Part shown: positions 1 to 58,376 of the stretch, piece by piece | Layout: the number at the start of each line of letters is the position of its first letter | How positions within the stretch are numbered: position 1 is the first letter of the stretch | Source of the DNA: Ignavibacteriota bacterium | Lineage (GTDB): Bacteria; Bacteroidota; Ignavibacteria; Ignavibacteriales; Melioribacteraceae | Assembly: GCA_013112585.1 (NCBI GenBank) | Contig: JABFGH010000008.1 | Location: 1-64,000, forward strand | Length of the DNA: 64,000 bases | Direction: 5' to 3' | Notes under the pieces: model-generated | Database searches by the model: none | What the model saw: only the letters and a program-made list of their open reading frames with translations | Told to the model about the DNA's origin: nothing | Program-made: the position numbers and the translations under genes

Positions 1-111
1 TCCTTGTCCTATGCGGTTTCTTACAACCAGGTTATTCCACGCTATTTGCCTGACGAAAAGAAGAAACTCCGGGTCGGTCTCGTAGACCAAGGGGTATTCC
101 TCCTTTTCCAT
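1..111 (-). CDS. Partial hypothetical protein (N-terminus only)
   Basis: An open frame reads leftward from an ATG at 111 off the window edge, giving 37 codons that start MEKEEYPLVYETDPEFLLF. An A-rich stretch lies upstream and no good Shine-Dalgarno sequence is seen. The residues look protein-like (acidic start, then a hydrophobic and aromatic stretch), but I recognise no family. The start is inferred and the rest of the gene is outside the window. Confidence 0.4.
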   Translation of the reverse strand, partial: MEKEEYPLVYETDPEFLLFVRQIAWNNLVVRNRIGQG

Positions 112-177
112 ACTTAACTATTTTTTTACTATTTTTCCATTATTAACTTTCAACATACAAGGGGTTAAAGTTTAATA

Positions 178-198
178 ACCACGGATATAATCCGTGGT
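178..198. repeat. Perfect intergenic palindrome
   Basis: ACCACGGAT, three bases, then ATCCGTGGT forms a perfect 9-bp inverted repeat. It resembles the short hairpins found in the other intergenic regions of this window. It has no T-run and lies between the partial gene and the toxin relic, so it is more likely a dispersed repeat hairpin than a terminator. Confidence 0.5.
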
Positions 199-240
199 AA
201 AACATAACGATGCAAGTATGAACTACGAAGTAGTTCAATT

Positions 241-438
241 AAAAATTTACACCGGTCAGATAAGGTAACTATAGAAGAGTATTTGTTGTTCGTGAAAAAG
301 AATAAACTAAACGGCATGGGAATAGGATTTGTTGATATTCATCTACTGGCATCTTCCAAGTTGGCTGGATACCCTTTGTTTACATACGATAAAAAATTAT
401 CCGCTGCCGCAGAGGAACTTAGGCTGGCTTATTTATAA
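241..438 (+). pseudogene. 5'-truncated PIN-domain (VapC-like) toxin relic
   Basis: The frame ending at the TAA at 436-438 encodes a C-terminal PIN segment: NGMGIGFVDIHLLASSKLAG, then PLFTYDKKLSAAAEELRLAYL. This matches the usual VapC C-terminal half, with GIG-(F/Y)VD-hLLAS and then a D-(K/R)-(K/R)-L motif. The frame is closed by a stop at 205, and no N-terminal half with the first catalytic Asp and no antitoxin are visible upstream. I read it as the decayed 3' end of a VapC gene. An intact VapBC-type pair lies at 7.0-7.6 kb but belongs to another PIN subgroup, so the two are not obvious duplicates. Confidence 0.6.
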
Positions 439-482
439 TTTCTTTTCCAAAGATCCTATCTTCAAAAAACGAAGATATGATC

Positions 483-2228
483 TTATGTTTGCTGCTTAAA
501 CACAACAGTAAAAACCGAACCTTTTCCCTTTTCACTTTTAACTTTTATATCGGCATTATTCAACTCGCAATATTTTTTTGAAAGAGCTAATCCCAAACCG
601 TTGCCTTCGTACCTTCGTGAAAAGCCGGTTTCTTCCTGCGAAAACGGTTTAAATAATTTACTAATATATTCACTGCCAATTCCAATGCCGGTATCTTTTA
701 TATCAACACAAATTTTCTTTTTTTCATTTTTATAGATATTAACCTCTATGCTGCCGGTTAAGGTATACTTTACGGCATTATCTAAAATATTTCTGAATAT
801 TTGTGTTGTAGTGTATCTATCAACTTTCAATACTGCATTTTCGACTTCATCATTAAAATTTAGTTTAAGATTTTTGTCTTTTATTAATTGCCACATTTCA
901 TTAACCGCAGAGGCAACAATATCTTTTGATATATCGAATTCCCTAAAGTCGGGTTCATAAGTTCCGGTTTGTATCTGCGACATATTCAAAATCATATCAA
1001 TTGTTCTAAGTAATCTTTTCGAACCGATATCAATTGAACGAAAACTGTTTTCAACAATTGATGAACCGCTATTTTTAATATCATCTTTAATTAAAGATAT
1101 ATAGCTGAGAATTGTGTGCAGCGGAGTGCGAACTTCATGCGACATCTGCGAGAGGAATTCTGATTTAAGTTTATCCGATTCCTGCGCTTTAATTTTTGCT
1201 TCCATTAATTCAACTTCATGGGTCTTTCTATCAGTTATATCTCTTGCCGAAAAAACAACATTGTCAACAACACCTTCATTATTTTTTACCGGCGTTAAAA
1301 TATATTCATAGTCGCGCGGACCGGCTACTGTGTTAAAAGTAATTTCATCGGTAACAGAATCACCGGAAACCATAGTCAATTTTCTTTTTGCTTCCAGCGC
1401 ATTTATTTGTTCGGTAGGTAAATTTAATTCAATCCAATTTTTACCAATCATTTCAAATCTATCTAAATTTAAGCTTTGCGCCGCTTGAAAATTTACATAA
1501 GTAAAACGACCTTCATCATCCCACATAAATATCATATCGGGCGCTGCGAGTAAAATAATTTCGAGCAAGTTAGCTTGTTCTTCCATTTTTGATGTCAGCT
1601 TTTTCTTCTCCAACTCACTCTGCATGTTTGATGTAATATCAGCACCGGCACTTAAGGTTCCTTCAATTATTCCGTCAACGCTTAATACTACCGAGTGATG
1701 CCAAAATATTAATTTTTCATTACCTCCTTTTGTCATTAAGCTGCTCTCGTAGTAAAACCATTTTTCCGTTTCCCCTACCATCATTCGGTCAAATGACTTT
1801 TGCAGTTCAAATCTTAAACGCGAAGGCACGAAATTAGAGAACCAATTTTTGCCGATTATTTCTTCACGATCCATTCCGATAATTTCGCAGCCGCGATTAT
1901 TAATCGCATTTACAAATCCATCTTTGTCTAATCCCACAATTATTTCTTGAGTAAGATTTAACAAATTATCATAAGCATTTTTCCGCAGCTTGTTTTTATG
2001 TATAACCTCTTCAAGCGGAACAATATATTTTACCATGATAAGTGCAAATACCATAAACAGCAGCACAACAATAATTCTTGATAAATATTCTTCCGGGGGA
2101 ATTTTGAGTATGAGCAAATCGAAAAATGAACCGCGGTAAAAAAATATATAATCTATTAATGTGCTGAAGACCCAAGCAGCAAGCCCAAATAAAAATGATA
2201 ATAAAAGTATTCTGTTATAAGTTTTCAT
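483..2228 (-). CDS. PAS-domain sensor histidine kinase (membrane)
   Basis: 581 residues. Two N-terminal membrane helices (about 7-30 and 50-70) flank a short outside loop. Two PAS domains follow (about 85-200 and 222-335), then a HisKA domain whose H-box MSHEVRTPL puts the phospho-accepting His near residue 364, and a HATPase domain with N-box (FRNILDNAVKY), G1 (DTGIGIG), F-box (LFKPFSQEE) and G2 (GNGLGLALSKK). It should autophosphorylate and pass the phosphate to a response regulator, but none is adjacent, so it is an orphan kinase. It is similar in design to the second kinase at 39.2 kb. The ligand of the PAS domains cannot be read from sequence. The ATG at 2228 places the first helix at the very N-terminus. 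Confidence 0.93.
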   Translation of the reverse strand: MKTYNRILLLSFLFGLAAWVFSTLIDYIFFYRGSFFDLLILKIPPEEYLSRIIVVLLFMVFALIMVKYIVPLEEVIHKNKLRKNAYDNLLNLTQEIIVGLDKDGFVNAINNRGCEIIGMDREEIIGKNWFSNFVPSRLRFELQKSFDRMMVGETEKWFYYESSLMTKGGNEKLIFWHHSVVLSVDGIIEGTLSAGADITSNMQSELEKKKLTSKMEEQANLLEIILLAAPDMIFMWDDEGRFTYVNFQAAQSLNLDRFEMIGKNWIELNLPTEQINALEAKRKLTMVSGDSVTDEITFNTVAGPRDYEYILTPVKNNEGVVDNVVFSARDITDRKTHEVELMEAKIKAQESDKLKSEFLSQMSHEVRTPLHTILSYISLIKDDIKNSGSSIVENSFRSIDIGSKRLLRTIDMILNMSQIQTGTYEPDFREFDISKDIVASAVNEMWQLIKDKNLKLNFNDEVENAVLKVDRYTTTQIFRNILDNAVKYTLTGSIEVNIYKNEKKKICVDIKDTGIGIGSEYISKLFKPFSQEETGFSRRYEGNGLGLALSKKYCELNNADIKVKSEKGKGSVFTVVFKQQT

Positions 2229-10910: not shown

Positions 10911-10931
10911 CCTGCCTGCCTACTAGACAGG
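10911..10931. repeat. 21-nt GC-rich palindromic insertion
   Basis: A 21-base unit beginning CCTGCCTGCCTACTAGACAG interrupts AT-rich DNA between GATT and ATTACCG. It has the same length and form (CCTGCC...GGCAGG type) as the insertions at 57.8-58.0 kb and 23113-23133. The flanks resemble the TCGATTACCGATTTTC-type simple repeat seen, inverted, near 19.27 kb. Confidence 0.6.
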
Positions 10932-10960
10932 ATTACCGATTTTTGATTTACGTTTATCCT

Positions 10961-11140
10961 GAATTATGCATTAGAAATAATTTATAAAGTCTAAATAAAG
11001 ATTGTCTTTTTAATTGCACCGTCATTTATGACGGTGATTGATATTAAAATTATGTAAGGGGCTTTAGCCCAAAACCATTTGGGTTAAAACCCAATATTTA
11101 TGTTTGTTCAATATTCACGGCGCTGAAGCACCGTGCTATT
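10961..11140. repeat. Dispersed intergenic repeat, copy A (uninterrupted)
   Basis: 180 bases matching, in inverted orientation, the segment 57777-58039. It contains hairpins such as CACCGTCATTTATGACGGTG and CACGGCGCTGAAGCACCGTG. Apart from about ten scattered differences, the two copies differ by four 21-base insertions present only in the other copy. No coding potential is evident. With the simple-repeat stretch to about 11230 it fills the gap between the methyltransferase and the GT2 gene. Confidence 0.8.
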
Positions 11141-11163
11141 ATTTCTATTGCATAATTCGGGTT

Positions 11164-11228
11164 TATACGTCTTCCCGTCTCTACATCTATACGTCTTTAC
11201 TTCTATACTCCTACACTTCTAAATTCCC
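11164..11228. repeat. Simple TACGTCT/TACTTCT repeat stretch
   Basis: Low-complexity repeats of about 8 bases (TATACGTC, TCTACATC, TATACTCC, ACACTTCT). A related stretch in the opposite orientation lies at 19203-19257. Neither is coding. Short degenerate tandem repeats of this type recur in the intergenic regions of this window. Confidence 0.55.
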
Positions 11229-19202: not shown

Positions 19203-19480
19203 GAAGATAGAATATAGAAGTATAGGAGTTTAGGAGTAGAGACGTAGAAATGTAAAATGGCAAAAGTATTTACGAAAATCGGTAATCGAATAATCGAATA
19301 ATCGAAAATCTAACAATATAAATGCGGGTTTCCATACAGTCATACAACCATTCAATCATTCAATCATGCAATCTTTGAATCTTTCAATCTTGTAATCTTG
19401 ATAATCCTACCTCCGGTAGGCAGGCTTTCAACCTTTCAACCTGCCAACCTGAAACTTGCAACCAATCATTCAACCATGCA
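19203..19480. repeat. Simple-repeat region R1, related to R2 at 23151-23505
   Basis: From 19203 a stretch of TATAGAAG/TAGAGACG-type units (inverted relative to 11164-11228). From 19282 a segment that matches 23151-23505 in direct orientation: TAATCGAA units, the shared AATATAAATGCGGGTTTCCAT, a few CATTCAAT units, CAATCTTTGAATCTTTC, a 19-base palindrome (19406-19424, CCTACCTCCGGTAGGCAGG) and the CCTGCCAACCTGAAAC end. R1 has about five CATTCAAY units where R2 has about twenty. No gene is seen here or up to 19636. Confidence 0.75.
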
Positions 19481-19636
19481 TTTATTCCGTACCCTCCTCT
19501 TTCCATTTGAAATTTAGCTTTTCTTCACTTATCTTAAAAATGATAAAATCATACTATTAGAGAACAATTGGCAAAGCGTAGGAAAATGATTTTAAAAATG
19601 GGAAATAAAATTCATAGGTTTTTATAAAGGTTACAA

Positions 19637-22881: not shown

Positions 22882-23150
22882 GATTTCAAATTTAACCGGG
22901 TGTCATACACCATTCTGTGACACGAACACTTTTAATAATGGTGATTTATGACATTGCTTTCCAAAATATCAATTAAAAATACTTTTAGAGTCCTACTCAT
23001 CCAAATTTGTATTCCACTTCTGACGGAGTTAAAGGAATATATTTAAGCTCTGGAATTTTTTGATAACATACCTCAATCAGCCATGCAGCCATGCAGTCAG
23101 TCAGTCGATGATCCTACCTACCGGCAGGCATGCGTTAATCGTGTAATCGT
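22882..23150. other. Intergenic region with hairpin and palindrome
   Basis: GTGTCA (around 22910) and TGACAC form an inverted repeat with a 12-base spacer shortly after the lipoprotein stop, without a T-run. Further on, 23113-23133 holds a 21-base unit beginning CCTACCTACCGGCAGGCATG, with the same form as the other 21-base palindromes. No gene is visible. Confidence 0.45.
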
Positions 23151-23505
23151 ATAATCGAATAATCGAATAATCGAAAATCTAATAATATAAATGCGGGTTT
23201 CCATTCAATCATTCAACCATTCAACCATTCAACCATTCAACCATTCAACCATTCAATCATTCAACCATGCAACCATTCAACCATTCAATCATTCAACCAT
23301 TCAACCATTCAATCATTCAACCATGCAACCATTCAACCATTCAACCATTCAACCATTCAACCATGCAATCTTTGAATCTTTCAATCTTGCAATCTTGATA
23401 ATCTTAATAATCTTGATAATCCTACCTCCGGTAGGCTGGCTTTCAATCTTTTCAACCTTTAACCTGCCAACTTGAAACCTGCAACCTATCCTTCAATCTT
23501 TACTC
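23151..23505. repeat. Simple-repeat region R2 with an 8-nt tandem array
   Basis: Direct relative of R1 (19282-19480). Between 23201 and 23370 there are about twenty copies of the 8-base unit CATTCAAC with variants CATTCAAT and CATGCAAC. Because 8 is not a multiple of 3, three units encode a repeated octapeptide and the frame stays open, producing a spurious ORF. A 19-base palindrome (23421-23439) and the CCTGCCAACTTGAAACC end are shared with R1. Unit identity is too high and spacing too short for a CRISPR. Confidence 0.85.
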
Positions 23506-31877: not shown

Positions 31878-32105
31878 ATTTTACTCCAAATTTAGTTTTA
31901 GAATAAAGGGAGTTTTTGGATATCAAATGAAAAGTGTCGGGAAATCCTCACCCACCTTTTTATTAACCTGCTGAGCCCCCCTATACAGGTGTTAGCAAAA
32001 TTTCTCTCTAATATCTGTTGTGTTTAATTATTAGATGGGATTTGTAATTTGCAGTTACAAAATATTTTTATTTTTTACTTTTTGATTTTTATAAGCAAGG
32101 GCTAA
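31878..32105. other. Intergenic, nothing recognised
   Basis: Upstream region of the leftward peroxidase-like gene. AT-rich, with a short CCCGACACTTTTC stretch and CCCCCTATACAGGTG. No coding frame or clear promoter could be assigned. Confidence 0.4.
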
Positions 32106-32850
32106 TTTTAATTATCACAGCAAATATTTAATAATCCGGCAGGGTTGCGGTGATATGCTTATACCTTTATTCCATAGGTTTCTCTTAGTGGTATTTTTAT
32201 TAGTCTGCTTCGTAGCCTGGAAATTCCTAAAACAGGTTCAGGGTAAGAGTTTAACTTATTGAAATTGATTTGAACCAAACAAATATTTGATATATTACCC
32301 AACACTGCAAAGTATATAACCCCGCTAGGGGTTAAATGTTTGTAGAACAAAGAAAGACGAAAAACATCGAACCGCAGGGCTGTTCAACCAAATTATTGTA
32401 ATGGGTAATATTTTAATTCTCACAGCAAATATTTAATAATCCGGCAGGGTTGCGGTGATATGCTTGTACCTTTATTCCATAGGTTTCTCTTAGTGGTATT
32501 TATATTAGTCTGCTTCGTTGCAGGGAATTTCCTAAAACAGGTTCAGGGTAAGAGTTTAACTTATTAAAATTGATTTGAGCCAAACAAATATTTGATATAT
32601 TACCCAACACTGCAAAGTATATAACCCCGCTAGGGGTTAAATGTTTGTAGAACAAAGAAAGAAGAACAACATCGAACCGCAGAGCGGTTCAACCAAATTA
32701 TTATAAAGGGTAATATTTTAATTATCACAGCAATTATTCTTCAACCCTGCTGGCGCTGTATTTATATGCCGGTTACCTTATTCCATAGAAATCTTCTACA
32801 GTTATTTGTATTAGAATATCGGCTCATCCTACAAAATTTCCGTGAATAGA
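32106..32850. repeat. 305-nt tandem duplication plus a partial third copy
   Basis: Unit 1 is 32106-32410, unit 2 is 32411-32715, and a diverged partial third copy runs from 32716 to about 32850. All begin TTTTAATT(A/C)TCACAGCA. Each full unit carries the hairpin AACCCCGCTAGGGGTT followed by AAATGTTTGTAGAACAAAG, and a second hairpin that is perfect in unit 2 (GAACCGC-AGA-GCGGTTC) but mismatched in unit 1. Units 1 and 2 differ at only a limited number of sites. Non-coding; it lies just upstream of the TetR promoter. Confidence 0.88.
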
Positions 32851-55236: not shown

Positions 55237-57765
55237 ATGGAATTTAGAAAACCTGTTTACAGCTTTTTGCCCTCGGAGCAAAAAGAAGTTAATGTACTTA
55301 TGGAACTCGCCCTCGATCTAAGATGGTCGTGGGATTACTCTGCCGATGAAATGTGGCGACAGTTCGATCCCGAGCTGTGGGATATTACCCGTAACCCTTG
55401 GGCAGTATTGCAAACAGTTAGCAAGGAACATTTTCAGGAATTGATCAGCGATCCCTTGTTTCGCAAAAAGATTGATTTTCTGGTAAATTCTCGGAAAGAA
55501 AGCAATGCAGCACCCGCATGGTTTCAAAAACACCATCCCAACTCTCCGCTCAAGGGAGTCGCTTATTTTTGCATGGAGTTTATGCTCACCGAAGGACTTC
55601 CAATCTATTCGGGGGGACTTGGAAACGTGGCAGGCGACCAAATGAAGACGGCGAGCGATTTGGGCGTGCCCGTGGTGGGCATCGGTCTGCTTTATCAACA
55701 GGGTTATTTTCGTCAAAAAATAGATTATAACGGCGATCAACAAGCCCTCTATCCGTTTAACGATCCGGGACAACTCCCCATATCACCCTTGCGCCAAGCC
55801 AACGGCGAATGGTTGCGCTTAAAGATAAGCCTGCCAGGATATCCTCAATGGCTCCGGGTATGGCAGGCTCAGGTAGGTCGTACAAAATTATATCTGTTAG
55901 ACAGCAACGATGTAGCAAATTTCCCCGTTCATCGAGGAACTACCAGTGAACTTTATGGTGGTGGAACCGAGCTTAGGTTTAAGCAGGAGATGATATTGGG
56001 AATTGGCGGATGGCGCTTATTAGAAGAGCTCGGCATTGAGCCGCAGGTATGTCATCTCAACGAAGGTCATGCCGCATTTGCCATCCTGGAGCGTGCACGC
56101 AGTTACATGGAAAAAACCGGGGTGTCTTTTGATGAAGCTTTAACGGTTACCAGAGCCGGTAATTTGTTTACCACCCATACCGCGGTACCTGCCGGATTTG
56201 ATTTGTTCCCGGCTTCCATAATTGAGCAGTACCTGGGCAATTATGCAGAAAAAATGCTGGGCATAACGCGAGAACAATTGTTGGCATTGGGCCGAAAAAA
56301 TCCTAACGACCATTCGGAACCATTCAATATGGCATATTTAGCCATTCGAGGTAGTGGTGCAGTAAATGGTGTGAGCCGTCTGCACGGCAAAGTTAGTCGC
56401 CGCATTTTTGGATCATTGTTTCAAAGATGGCCAGCAGATGAGGTACCCGTTGATTATGTTACCAATGGTGTGCATGTGCCTACCTGGGATAGCAAAGAAG
56501 CTGACGAAATTTGGACCGATGCCTGTGGTAAGGATAGGTGGCTGGGCACCAATAAAACGTTGGAAAAGGATATTCGCAAAGTTTCCGACGAACGCCTGTG
56601 GGAGATGCGTACCAATGCCAACCAGGCACTTATTCAATTTGCCCGTAAACATTTTGCAAGACAATTGCAGGGATCCGGACATCCGATCGATGCGGTTGAA
56701 AGGGCAAGGCAACTGTTCAGTCCCAATGTTTTAACCCTGGGCTTTGCCCGTCGTTTTGCCACTTATAAGCGACCTAATTTATTGTTGAGCCATCCGCAGC
56801 GTCTGCTCCGTCTGTTAACAAATCCTACCTATCCGGTTCAGCTGGTCATTGCAGGCAAAGCTCACCCTGCCGATGGACTCGGGCAGGCTTTAATTAAAGA
56901 GTGGATTCAGTTTATCCGACAGAACGGTATTCACACCCCCGTTATATTCCTAAGCGACTATGATATACATGTGGGCGAAAATTTGGTTCAGGGCGTGGAT
57001 GTTTGGATCAATACACCCCGCCGACCATGGGAAGCCAGCGGAACCAGCGGTATGAAAGTGCTGGTGAACGGCGGTATTAATCTTTCGGAGCTGGACGGCT
57101 GGTGGGCCGAAGCCTACACGCCCGAAGTGGGCTGGGCTATTGGCGACGGCAACGAACATGGCGACGACCCGGCTTGGGATGCAATTGAGGCAGAACAGCT
57201 TTTTAGTTTACTAGAAAACGAAATTGTGCCCGAATTCTACGAACGAAACAAAAAAGGGATTCCCACAGCTTGGGTTGCCCGGATGCGGGAGAGCATGGCA
57301 CAATTAACACCCAGATTTTCTGCTGACAGAACGGTGAGAGAATATACCGAGAAGCATTATATACCGGCTGCAAAGGCATATATGGAACGTGCAGCTCGTA
57401 AAGGTAAAAAAGGAATGGAAATAGTAAAAGTGCTAAAAACCCTCCAACAACATTGGGATGAATTGTATTTTGGTGAAATGAAGATTTCGTCCACCGAAAA
57501 ACACCATGATTTTGAAGTTGAGGTAACTCTCAATACCATTGATAGTGAAAATGTAAAGGTTGAGTTATATGCCAATGGAATAAACGGGGAGGAGGCAAGC
57601 ATCATTGCAATGACGCGTGGTAGTTTAAATAAAGGTAATAGATATACCTATAATGCAAAAGTAGCCTCCACGCGACCCGCATCGGATTATACGGCACGCA
57701 TCATTCCCAATGTAGAGGGTGTTTCCGTTCCGCTGGAAAGCAATCTTATTTTGTGGCAGCGTTAA
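55237..57765 (+). CDS. glgP: Alpha-glucan (glycogen) phosphorylase
   Basis: 842 residues from the ATG at 55237, which has GGAGG 7 bases upstream; the frame continues 14 codons further to 55195 without an RBS. An N-terminal DUF3417 domain (about 10-110, LALDLRWSWDYSADEMWRQF) is followed by the GT35 body: FMLTEGLPIYSGGLGNVAGD, NEGHAAFAILERAR, TNGVHVPTW, RFATYKRPNLLL and WEASGTSGMKVLVNGGINLS with the PLP Lys. Releases glucose 1-phosphate from glucan. Codons are clearly more GC-rich (e.g. GGC, GAC, CCC) than neighbours, which with the adjacent relic and repeat suggests horizontal acquisition. Confidence 0.93.
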   Translation: MEFRKPVYSFLPSEQKEVNVLMELALDLRWSWDYSADEMWRQFDPELWDITRNPWAVLQTVSKEHFQELISDPLFRKKIDFLVNSRKESNAAPAWFQKHHPNSPLKGVAYFCMEFMLTEGLPIYSGGLGNVAGDQMKTASDLGVPVVGIGLLYQQGYFRQKIDYNGDQQALYPFNDPGQLPISPLRQANGEWLRLKISLPGYPQWLRVWQAQVGRTKLYLLDSNDVANFPVHRGTTSELYGGGTELRFKQEMILGIGGWRLLEELGIEPQVCHLNEGHAAFAILERARSYMEKTGVSFDEALTVTRAGNLFTTHTAVPAGFDLFPASIIEQYLGNYAEKMLGITREQLLALGRKNPNDHSEPFNMAYLAIRGSGAVNGVSRLHGKVSRRIFGSLFQRWPADEVPVDYVTNGVHVPTWDSKEADEIWTDACGKDRWLGTNKTLEKDIRKVSDERLWEMRTNANQALIQFARKHFARQLQGSGHPIDAVERARQLFSPNVLTLGFARRFATYKRPNLLLSHPQRLLRLLTNPTYPVQLVIAGKAHPADGLGQALIKEWIQFIRQNGIHTPVIFLSDYDIHVGENLVQGVDVWINTPRRPWEASGTSGMKVLVNGGINLSELDGWWAEAYTPEVGWAIGDGNEHGDDPAWDAIEAEQLFSLLENEIVPEFYERNKKGIPTAWVARMRESMAQLTPRFSADRTVREYTEKHYIPAAKAYMERAARKGKKGMEIVKVLKTLQQHWDELYFGEMKISSTEKHHDFEVEVTLNTIDSENVKVELYANGINGEEASIIAMTRGSLNKGNRYTYNAKVASTRPASDYTARIIPNVEGVSVPLESNLILWQR

Positions 57766-57776
57766 GCAAAAGAGAT

Positions 57777-58039
57777 AATAGCACGGTGCTTCAGCGCCGT
57801 GAATCCTGCCTGTCCGGCAGGCGGGATTGAACAAACATATATACCGGGTTTTTCCAAAGGATTCCTGGGGATAACCCAAACGGTTTTGGCCTGCCCACCG
57901 GCAAAGGCAAGCTAAAGCCTCTTACATAATTTTAAAATCAATCACCGTCATACCCGCCTGCCGGACGGGCAGGAATGACGGTGCAATTAAAAAGACAATT
58001 TTTATTTAGACTTTATTAATTATTTCTAATGCATAATTC
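57777..58039. repeat. Dispersed intergenic repeat, copy B with four 21-nt insertions
   Basis: Inverted relative of 10961-11140. It is 83 bases longer, nearly all of it four 21-base blocks at 57805-57825, 57851-57871, 57890-57910 and 57953-57973; removing them restores continuous alignment. Blocks one and four are reverse complements but for one base (core CCGCCTGCCGGACAGGCAGG); block three is a variant (CCTGCCCACCGGCAAAGGCA); block two differs (TTTCCAAAGGATTCCTGGGG) but is also semi-palindromic. Confidence 0.85.
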
Positions 58040-58376
58040 GGGTTAAGTGGAGTATTTTTATCCCTTGGTTGAGGAATAAGCGCACGGTCAAATATCTCTT
58101 TAGGTTTTGTTTAAATTGATTTTGCTGCATGTGTTGATAAAGACATCGATCAAATCATTAGGGCTCATATCACAGCCCCATGCCGATGAAACCATCAACC
58201 TGCACTTGCGCTGGTAATAAAAGTGGGCACTGCAGCGAACGATATTAAAAATATGCCGTTTATTTTTCGTAAGGAAAAGATGCTGGACTTGAATTAATCC
58301 GACCACTTGTTAACTTAACTACACCTTCGTCTCTTCGCTCCGATAAACGGTCGGATTACTCCGGGAACTGTAGAAT
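58040..58376. other. Intergenic with possible relic and inverted repeat
   Basis: Near 58100-58290 the base composition is richer than the surroundings, and short protein-like frames exist (e.g. VDKDIDQIIRAHITAP), but no family is recognised, so it may be decayed coding DNA. AATCCGACC (about 58295) and GGTCGGATT (about 58348) form a perfect 9-bp inverted repeat 3' of the leftward RND gene and could act as its terminator hairpin. Confidence 0.35.

Follow-up and report, generated by a model that had tools for sequence, protein, structure and literature searches.

What are the four short palindromic blocks that interrupt one copy of a dispersed repeat in this 64,000-nt stretch of DNA (the window), and how did they come to be there? 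A first-pass annotation had described exactly 21 bases inserted at each of four sites and had read them as a mobile palindrome of constrained size that inserts precisely, and not as a product of random duplication. Aligning a copy whose sites are empty (10940-11170) with the reverse complement of 57760-58060 revealed four clean insertions, and at none of the joints was a flanking base lost or duplicated. The inserts are indeed seamless, but their uniform length did not hold, as the sizes are 21, 21, 20 and 21 nt. The alignment with the empty copy defines them as follows:

57805-57825, plus strand: palindromic insert CCTGCCTGTCCGGCAGGCGGG, 21 nt, at host site 3 (between GTGAAT and ATTGAAC), one mismatch to the 21-mer consensus.
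57853-57872, minus strand: palindromic insert of different sequence (ATCCCCAGGAATCCTTTGGA), 20 nt, at host site 4, the tip of a TTGGGTT/AACCCAA hairpin; 20 nt in 9/9 occupied copies.
57890-57910, minus strand: variant insert TTGCCTTTGCCGGTGGGCAGG, 21 nt, at host site 2, where most other copies have 22 nt.
57953-57973, minus strand: palindromic insert CCTGCCCGTCCGGCAGGCGGG, 21 nt, an exact match to the consensus, at host site 1, the tip of a CACCGTCAT/ATGACGGTG hairpin.

As first described, one base separates the block at 57805 from the reverse complement of that at 57953, and the block at 57890-57910 is a variant. The palindrome at 57853 has a different sequence, as claimed, but not the same length. 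Two inserts had been placed at hairpin tips, and two sites do coincide exactly with a dyad, site 1 with that of 9-bp arms and site 4 with that of 7-bp arms. Site 3 has a dyad of AAT/ATT only, and site 2, judged by sequence, is at the foot between two hairpins. An existing inverted-repeat dyad therefore hosts three of the four inserts (sites 1, 4 and 3). Searching the window against Rfam returned no match.

The interrupted repeat is itself a dispersed element of ~205 bp, with 53 BLAST matches to the empty copy in the window's own genome (G000, 4.94 Mb). Full copies end in CCCGAATTATGCA and TGCATAATTCGGG. Because the same 5 nt often flank a copy on both sides (TTCAA, TTAAA, TTTAA or TTTAT), we consider the repeat MITE-like. 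Three further features of the window belong here:

57766-58044, minus strand: MITE-like host copy with all four inserts present; one terminal repeat (TGCATAATTCGGGTT) intact at 58030-58044, the other degraded.
10956-11163, plus strand: MITE-like host copy with all four sites empty; ends TCCTGAATTATGCA and TGCATAATTCGGG, TTTAT on both flanks.
10911-10931, plus strand: probable decayed solitary 21-nt copy CCTGCCTGCCTACTAGACAGG, outside the host repeat; CCTGCC-N5-GGCAGG with one mismatch at 10915-10931.

The 27 host copies compared in this genome show 10 of the 16 possible patterns of filled and empty sites. Removing the inserts leaves cores of 178-181 nt in all 27 copies, and of exactly 181 nt in 19. 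Identical cores occur in different states (L002, 0000; L005, 0110; L011, 1101), and a tree of the cores needs 8, 7, 4 and 9 changes at the four sites. Insert size follows the site: 21 nt at site 1, 22 nt (21-23) at site 2, 21 nt at site 3 and 20 nt at site 4. The GCCTTTGCCGG insert measures 22 nt in 16 of 20 copies and 21 nt in the window copy, and the ATCCC insert measures 20 nt in all nine copies that have it. The latter is another palindrome family, known here from the host repeat alone. Some copies depart from this architecture: L027, L029, L030 and L037 are ~90-nt versions that lack the inner hairpins and are joined at a GCACCGT repeat, and L028 looks like a product of recombination between two 21-mer inserts.

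Combinatorial occupancy could arise in a family whose inserts never moved. Each insertion may have occurred once in an old master copy and then been shuffled by recombination and gene conversion. Inserts at any given site are nearly identical from copy to copy, and identical cores in different insert states are also expected from short-tract conversion; gene conversion between host copies could be the source of some insert states. Alternatively, the full repeat is ancestral and its hairpins were cleanly lost; within the host family, changes of state do not fix the direction, gain or loss. The blocks are not flanked by direct repeats that might guide such a deletion. What separates these accounts from mobility of the palindromes themselves is the behaviour of the 21-mer elsewhere.

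Counting the CCTGCC...GGCAGG form genome-wide, as the first-pass annotation had proposed, yielded 47 CCTGCC-N5-GGCAGG sites in G000, compared with 0 for a reversed-pattern control. Allowing up to three mismatches to the 21-mer gave 53 copies, again with 0 for the reversed control, so these palindrome sites are not due to chance. Other repeats with a different hairpin carry the 21-mer between GCACCGACATT and TATGTCGGTG (L066, L071, L074 and L079), and further copies are found in unrelated intergenic DNA and inside genes. The in-frame copies include NNGT-RLPDGQA-GKSERR in what we take to be a DegT-like aminotransferase (L067), CAC-EPARLAGG-EDEKK in a presumed mercury-transport-like protein (L068) and LDA-RLPNRQG-SNLSSGVYFYRL in a presumable C-terminal sorting domain (L072). 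Near its 21-mer, L072 (G000:C10:70695-71715, ORF 2-631, plus strand) holds a second in-frame palindrome of the CCCTTCGCCAGGCTCAGGG type, read as NPSPGSGQV, which suggests that there are further families of small inserting palindromes. In the literature searched, no paper was found on a second palindrome, of the TTCGACAAGCTCAGG type.

We then scanned 84,980 species genomes for exact matches to the consensus 21-mer, CCTGCCYGTCCGGCAGGCRGG. It occurs in at least 118 stretches from at least 23 named phyla (NCBI lineage), against a chance expectation of 0.5 in 257 Gb at 50% G+C. Among the matches listed, 57 are from Bacteroidota; others are from Omnitrophota, many Patescibacteria lineages, Nitrospirota, Elusimicrobiota, Planctomycetota, Bacillota and Chloroflexota. 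Cultured isolates of Flavivirga, Muricauda, Mucilaginibacter, Salegentibacter, Aequorivita, Zunongwangia and Maribacter carry it, so the 21-mer is not just an artefact of metagenomes. The flanks of these copies are unrelated. With one mismatch allowed, copies number 124 in G508, 110 in G522 and 64 in G509 (G508 and G509 are Bacillota genomes, both MAGs), and the reversed pattern gave 0 matches in 18/18 genomes counted. A count of 65 in G405 was set aside, as it refers to a looser palindrome and not to the 21-mer. In G048, from the window genome's own order, nearly all of 20 sampled copies are 21 nt long and have other loops (CCTGCCTTGCCGGCAGGCAGG), and many lie in unrelated places. Copies also sit at hairpin tips (between CATTCCCGCGAAA and GCGGGAATCC in L142; between GGACG and CGTCC in L159), nested within another 21-mer copy (L116, L134 and L222) or in tandem (L109). 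Coupling of positions 7 and 19 (C-G 67, T-A 53, T-G 4, C-A 3) looked like structural covariation; we made no use of it, since it may reflect just two haplotypes copied as units.

Many copies lie within genes. Open reading frames of at least 200 codons contain 68 of 119 sites, and in termite-gut genomes 68 of 80 sites fall within open frames of at least 100 codons. None of the six reading frames of the 21 nt contains a stop codon, and an in-frame insertion adds seven residues. The first-pass annotation had called for comparing occupied with empty sites in relatives, and this produced clean pairs in alanyl-tRNA synthetase (AlaRS) and phage tail-sheath genes. The AlaRS gene of G129 has CCTGCCCGTCCGACAGGCGGG between GGCGAT and TATTTC (GD-PARPTGG-YF), whereas in five congeners GGCGAT runs directly into TATTT. 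In an alignment of 99 family members, the insert is present in 3, and 82 show a gap of exactly 21 nt; the best-matching solved AlaRS likewise has a gap in place of the seven residues. The same point is occupied by decayed copies in L305 and L322 and by exact copies in L186, L200 and L207. On a protein tree built without the insert, at least five changes of state at the same nucleotide are needed across Bacteroidota; lateral movement of this part of the gene could account for some of the recurrence.

The sheath genes come from termite-gut Bacillota phage-like contigs (IMG/VR 2820306284 and overlapping WRKG contigs). Blastn of the two related genes gave no match, and we compared them by MAFFT alignment, in which their 21-nt inserts are reciprocal, present or absent in both directions. 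One 20-nt copy (CCCGCCTGCCGGCGGGCAGG) shifts the frame and brings one of the genes to an early end. One ORF of 1054 residues has five inserts. On L360, L357 and L348 (IMG/VR 2820306284), the 21-mer occurs about once per kb, often several times per structural gene. In Muricauda sp. NBRC 101325, a 21-mer at 1015-1035 of L173 lies within a larger palindromic repeat, apparently itself inserted in frame in a gene that we assume to encode a probable leucyl-tRNA synthetase.

These occupied and empty sites bear on both accounts raised by the host repeat. Shuffling does not explain why one 21-mer recurs across unrelated loci, genes, phages and phyla, nor the AlaRS gain in a single species. As a full explanation it is contradicted, and we regard it as very improbable, although it may contribute inside the repeat family. 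Precise deletion is difficult to reconcile with the small number of occupied AlaRS genes and with the reciprocal sheath genes, and we give it scarcely any credence. We also looked for copies of random length, ragged borders and a lack of empty sites in relatives, and saw none of these. Mobility with precise insertion, as first proposed, gains support from combinatorial occupancy, the AlaRS and sheath pairs and dispersal across phyla; a strict size of 21 nt does not, as inserts range from 20 to 23 nt overall.

At 102 sites in termite-gut genomes, the loop is 5 nt in 93 and 4 nt in 8. Since one 20-nt copy breaks its frame and others are intergenic, insert size appears to be set mainly by the insertion process and not only by selection on frame. 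Strong central stems (score of at least 7) mark 10.6% of 113 sites (12/113) and 0.84% of control points (20 random points per contig), an enrichment of ~13-fold, although most 21-mer sites are not at hairpins. The base to the right of the element is T or C at 74 of 80 termite-gut sites and A at 3. The joint consensus in these genomes, read post hoc, is YYR/YRR, symmetric about the joint. It was discarded as a general target, because pooled sites from other phyla keep only the pyrimidine at +1 (89/108, with A in 2/108). We found no fixed tetranucleotide in the element's flanks.

Which enzyme might move such a sequence? The first-pass annotation had suggested a REP-associated tyrosine (Y1) transposase (RAYT) or another catalyst; with RAYT, the palindromes would be REP-like hairpins moved as single strands. 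Our Y1 search found eight Y1_Tnp matches in G000 and at least one match in 21 of 24 high-copy Bacteroidota genomes, compared with 68% of all 392. No match was present in G508 or G509, which carry 124 and 64 copies, and RAYT therefore appears not to be required, with the caveat that both genomes are MAGs. G513 and G523 also carry the element and had no Y1 match; the same negative result came from the Bacteroidota genomes G153, G178 and G273, which have the looser palindrome in abundance. The element itself has neither a GTAG/GGAG-type foot nor a fixed target tetranucleotide. We consider movement by RAYT unlikely.

The explanation we favour, and think very probably correct, is that each block is a copy of a very small mobile palindrome, in the main from one 20-22-nt family (consensus CCTGCCYGTCCGGCAGGCRGG), with proposed blunt joining by a trans-acting enzyme and carriage between hosts. 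Comparative evidence indicates that the element is real, precise and mobile, and it is apparently among the smallest known mobile DNA elements. Each insertion adds the element only, with no target duplication and no lost base, often on the symmetry axis of a hairpin already there. We propose that many bacteria share a recombinase or nuclease acting in trans, which would open target DNA without a stagger, at a hairpin or a flexible site, favouring hairpin or cruciform tips and a right-side pyrimidine. A copy of the palindrome would then be joined into the opened site, and phages and other carriers would move copies between hosts. Combinations within the host repeat would stem from palindromes being gained again and again, and perhaps also precisely lost, at a small number of preferred sites, with movement of the host MITE multiplying the outcome. 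A broader claim, to which we give about even chances, is that one 20-22-nt palindrome family is a bona fide mobile element shared by a large part of the Bacteria and their phages. A putative widespread enzyme acting in trans would insert it bluntly, and proteins in general would owe seven-residue insertions to it.

At 21 nt, the element is near the smallest DNA that could be called mobile. Unlike known small repeats, it crosses phyla almost unchanged and lies within essential genes without breaking their reading frame. For a very small mobile repeat, its host range is unexpectedly wide. Clean pairs of empty and occupied sites, along with genomes holding more than 100 copies, make the movement of very small palindromes directly testable. 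The element also accounts for recurrent, unexplained seven-residue inserts in predicted proteins (PARPAGG, LPAGQAG and ARLPDGQ), which can mislead alignments and structure prediction.

A search of a limited paper collection for the 21-mer and its peptides found nothing relevant. The closest known kind is the small dispersed repeats (SDR) of cyanobacteria, reportedly described by Elhai et al. in 2008. They are 21-27 nt long, dispersed and precisely inserted, including into repeats; our element, at 20-23 nt, shares these traits, a likeness at the level of description. SDR are known from cyanobacteria, whereas the 21-mer is found, almost invariant in sequence, in at least 23 phyla and is numerous in protein-coding genes and phages. 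Like the 21-mer, SDR are very short mobile repeats that insert precisely, by a mechanism still unsettled, and can lie within another repeat, as SDR5 does within HIP1 (PMC4390886).

Other systems share fewer features. MITEs differ in that the 21-mer's joints have no target-site duplication, in contrast to the 5-nt flanking duplications of the host repeat itself. Rickettsia palindromic elements (RPE) are palindromes that lie in frame inside coding genes, as the 21-mer does, but they are roughly 100-150 nt long and confined to Rickettsiales, whereas the 21-mer is 20-23 nt and pan-bacterial. A list of proteins with RPE is available (PMC2635572). REP and REPIN sequences with RAYT are short, palindromic, non-autonomous and present in many copies per genome (PMC3116915), as is the 21-mer. 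The 21-mer departs from them in that two of the most loaded genomes have no Y1 transposase, many copies are inside genes and not extragenic, and single seamless 21-nt insertions occur without a conserved tetranucleotide foot. The mobile GC clusters of yeast mitochondria are GC-rich palindromes that spread in AT-rich DNA, with turnover, horizontal transfer and an unsettled mechanism; GC42 is 42 nt long with a putative AG target duplication (PMC4478555). The 21-mer is likewise palindromic, GC-rich and mobile, but it is bacterial, 20-22 nt long and has neither AG nor any other duplication at its joints.

Two more features of the window were recorded. Arrays of 8-nt repeats (AACCATTC and variants) occupy 19275-19487 and 23136-23466, each with a CCTACC-TCC-GGTAGG palindrome nearby, and these palindromes may be relatives of the 21-mer. 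At 32105-32709, two 300-nt tandem copies, 95% identical, are spaced 305 nt apart.
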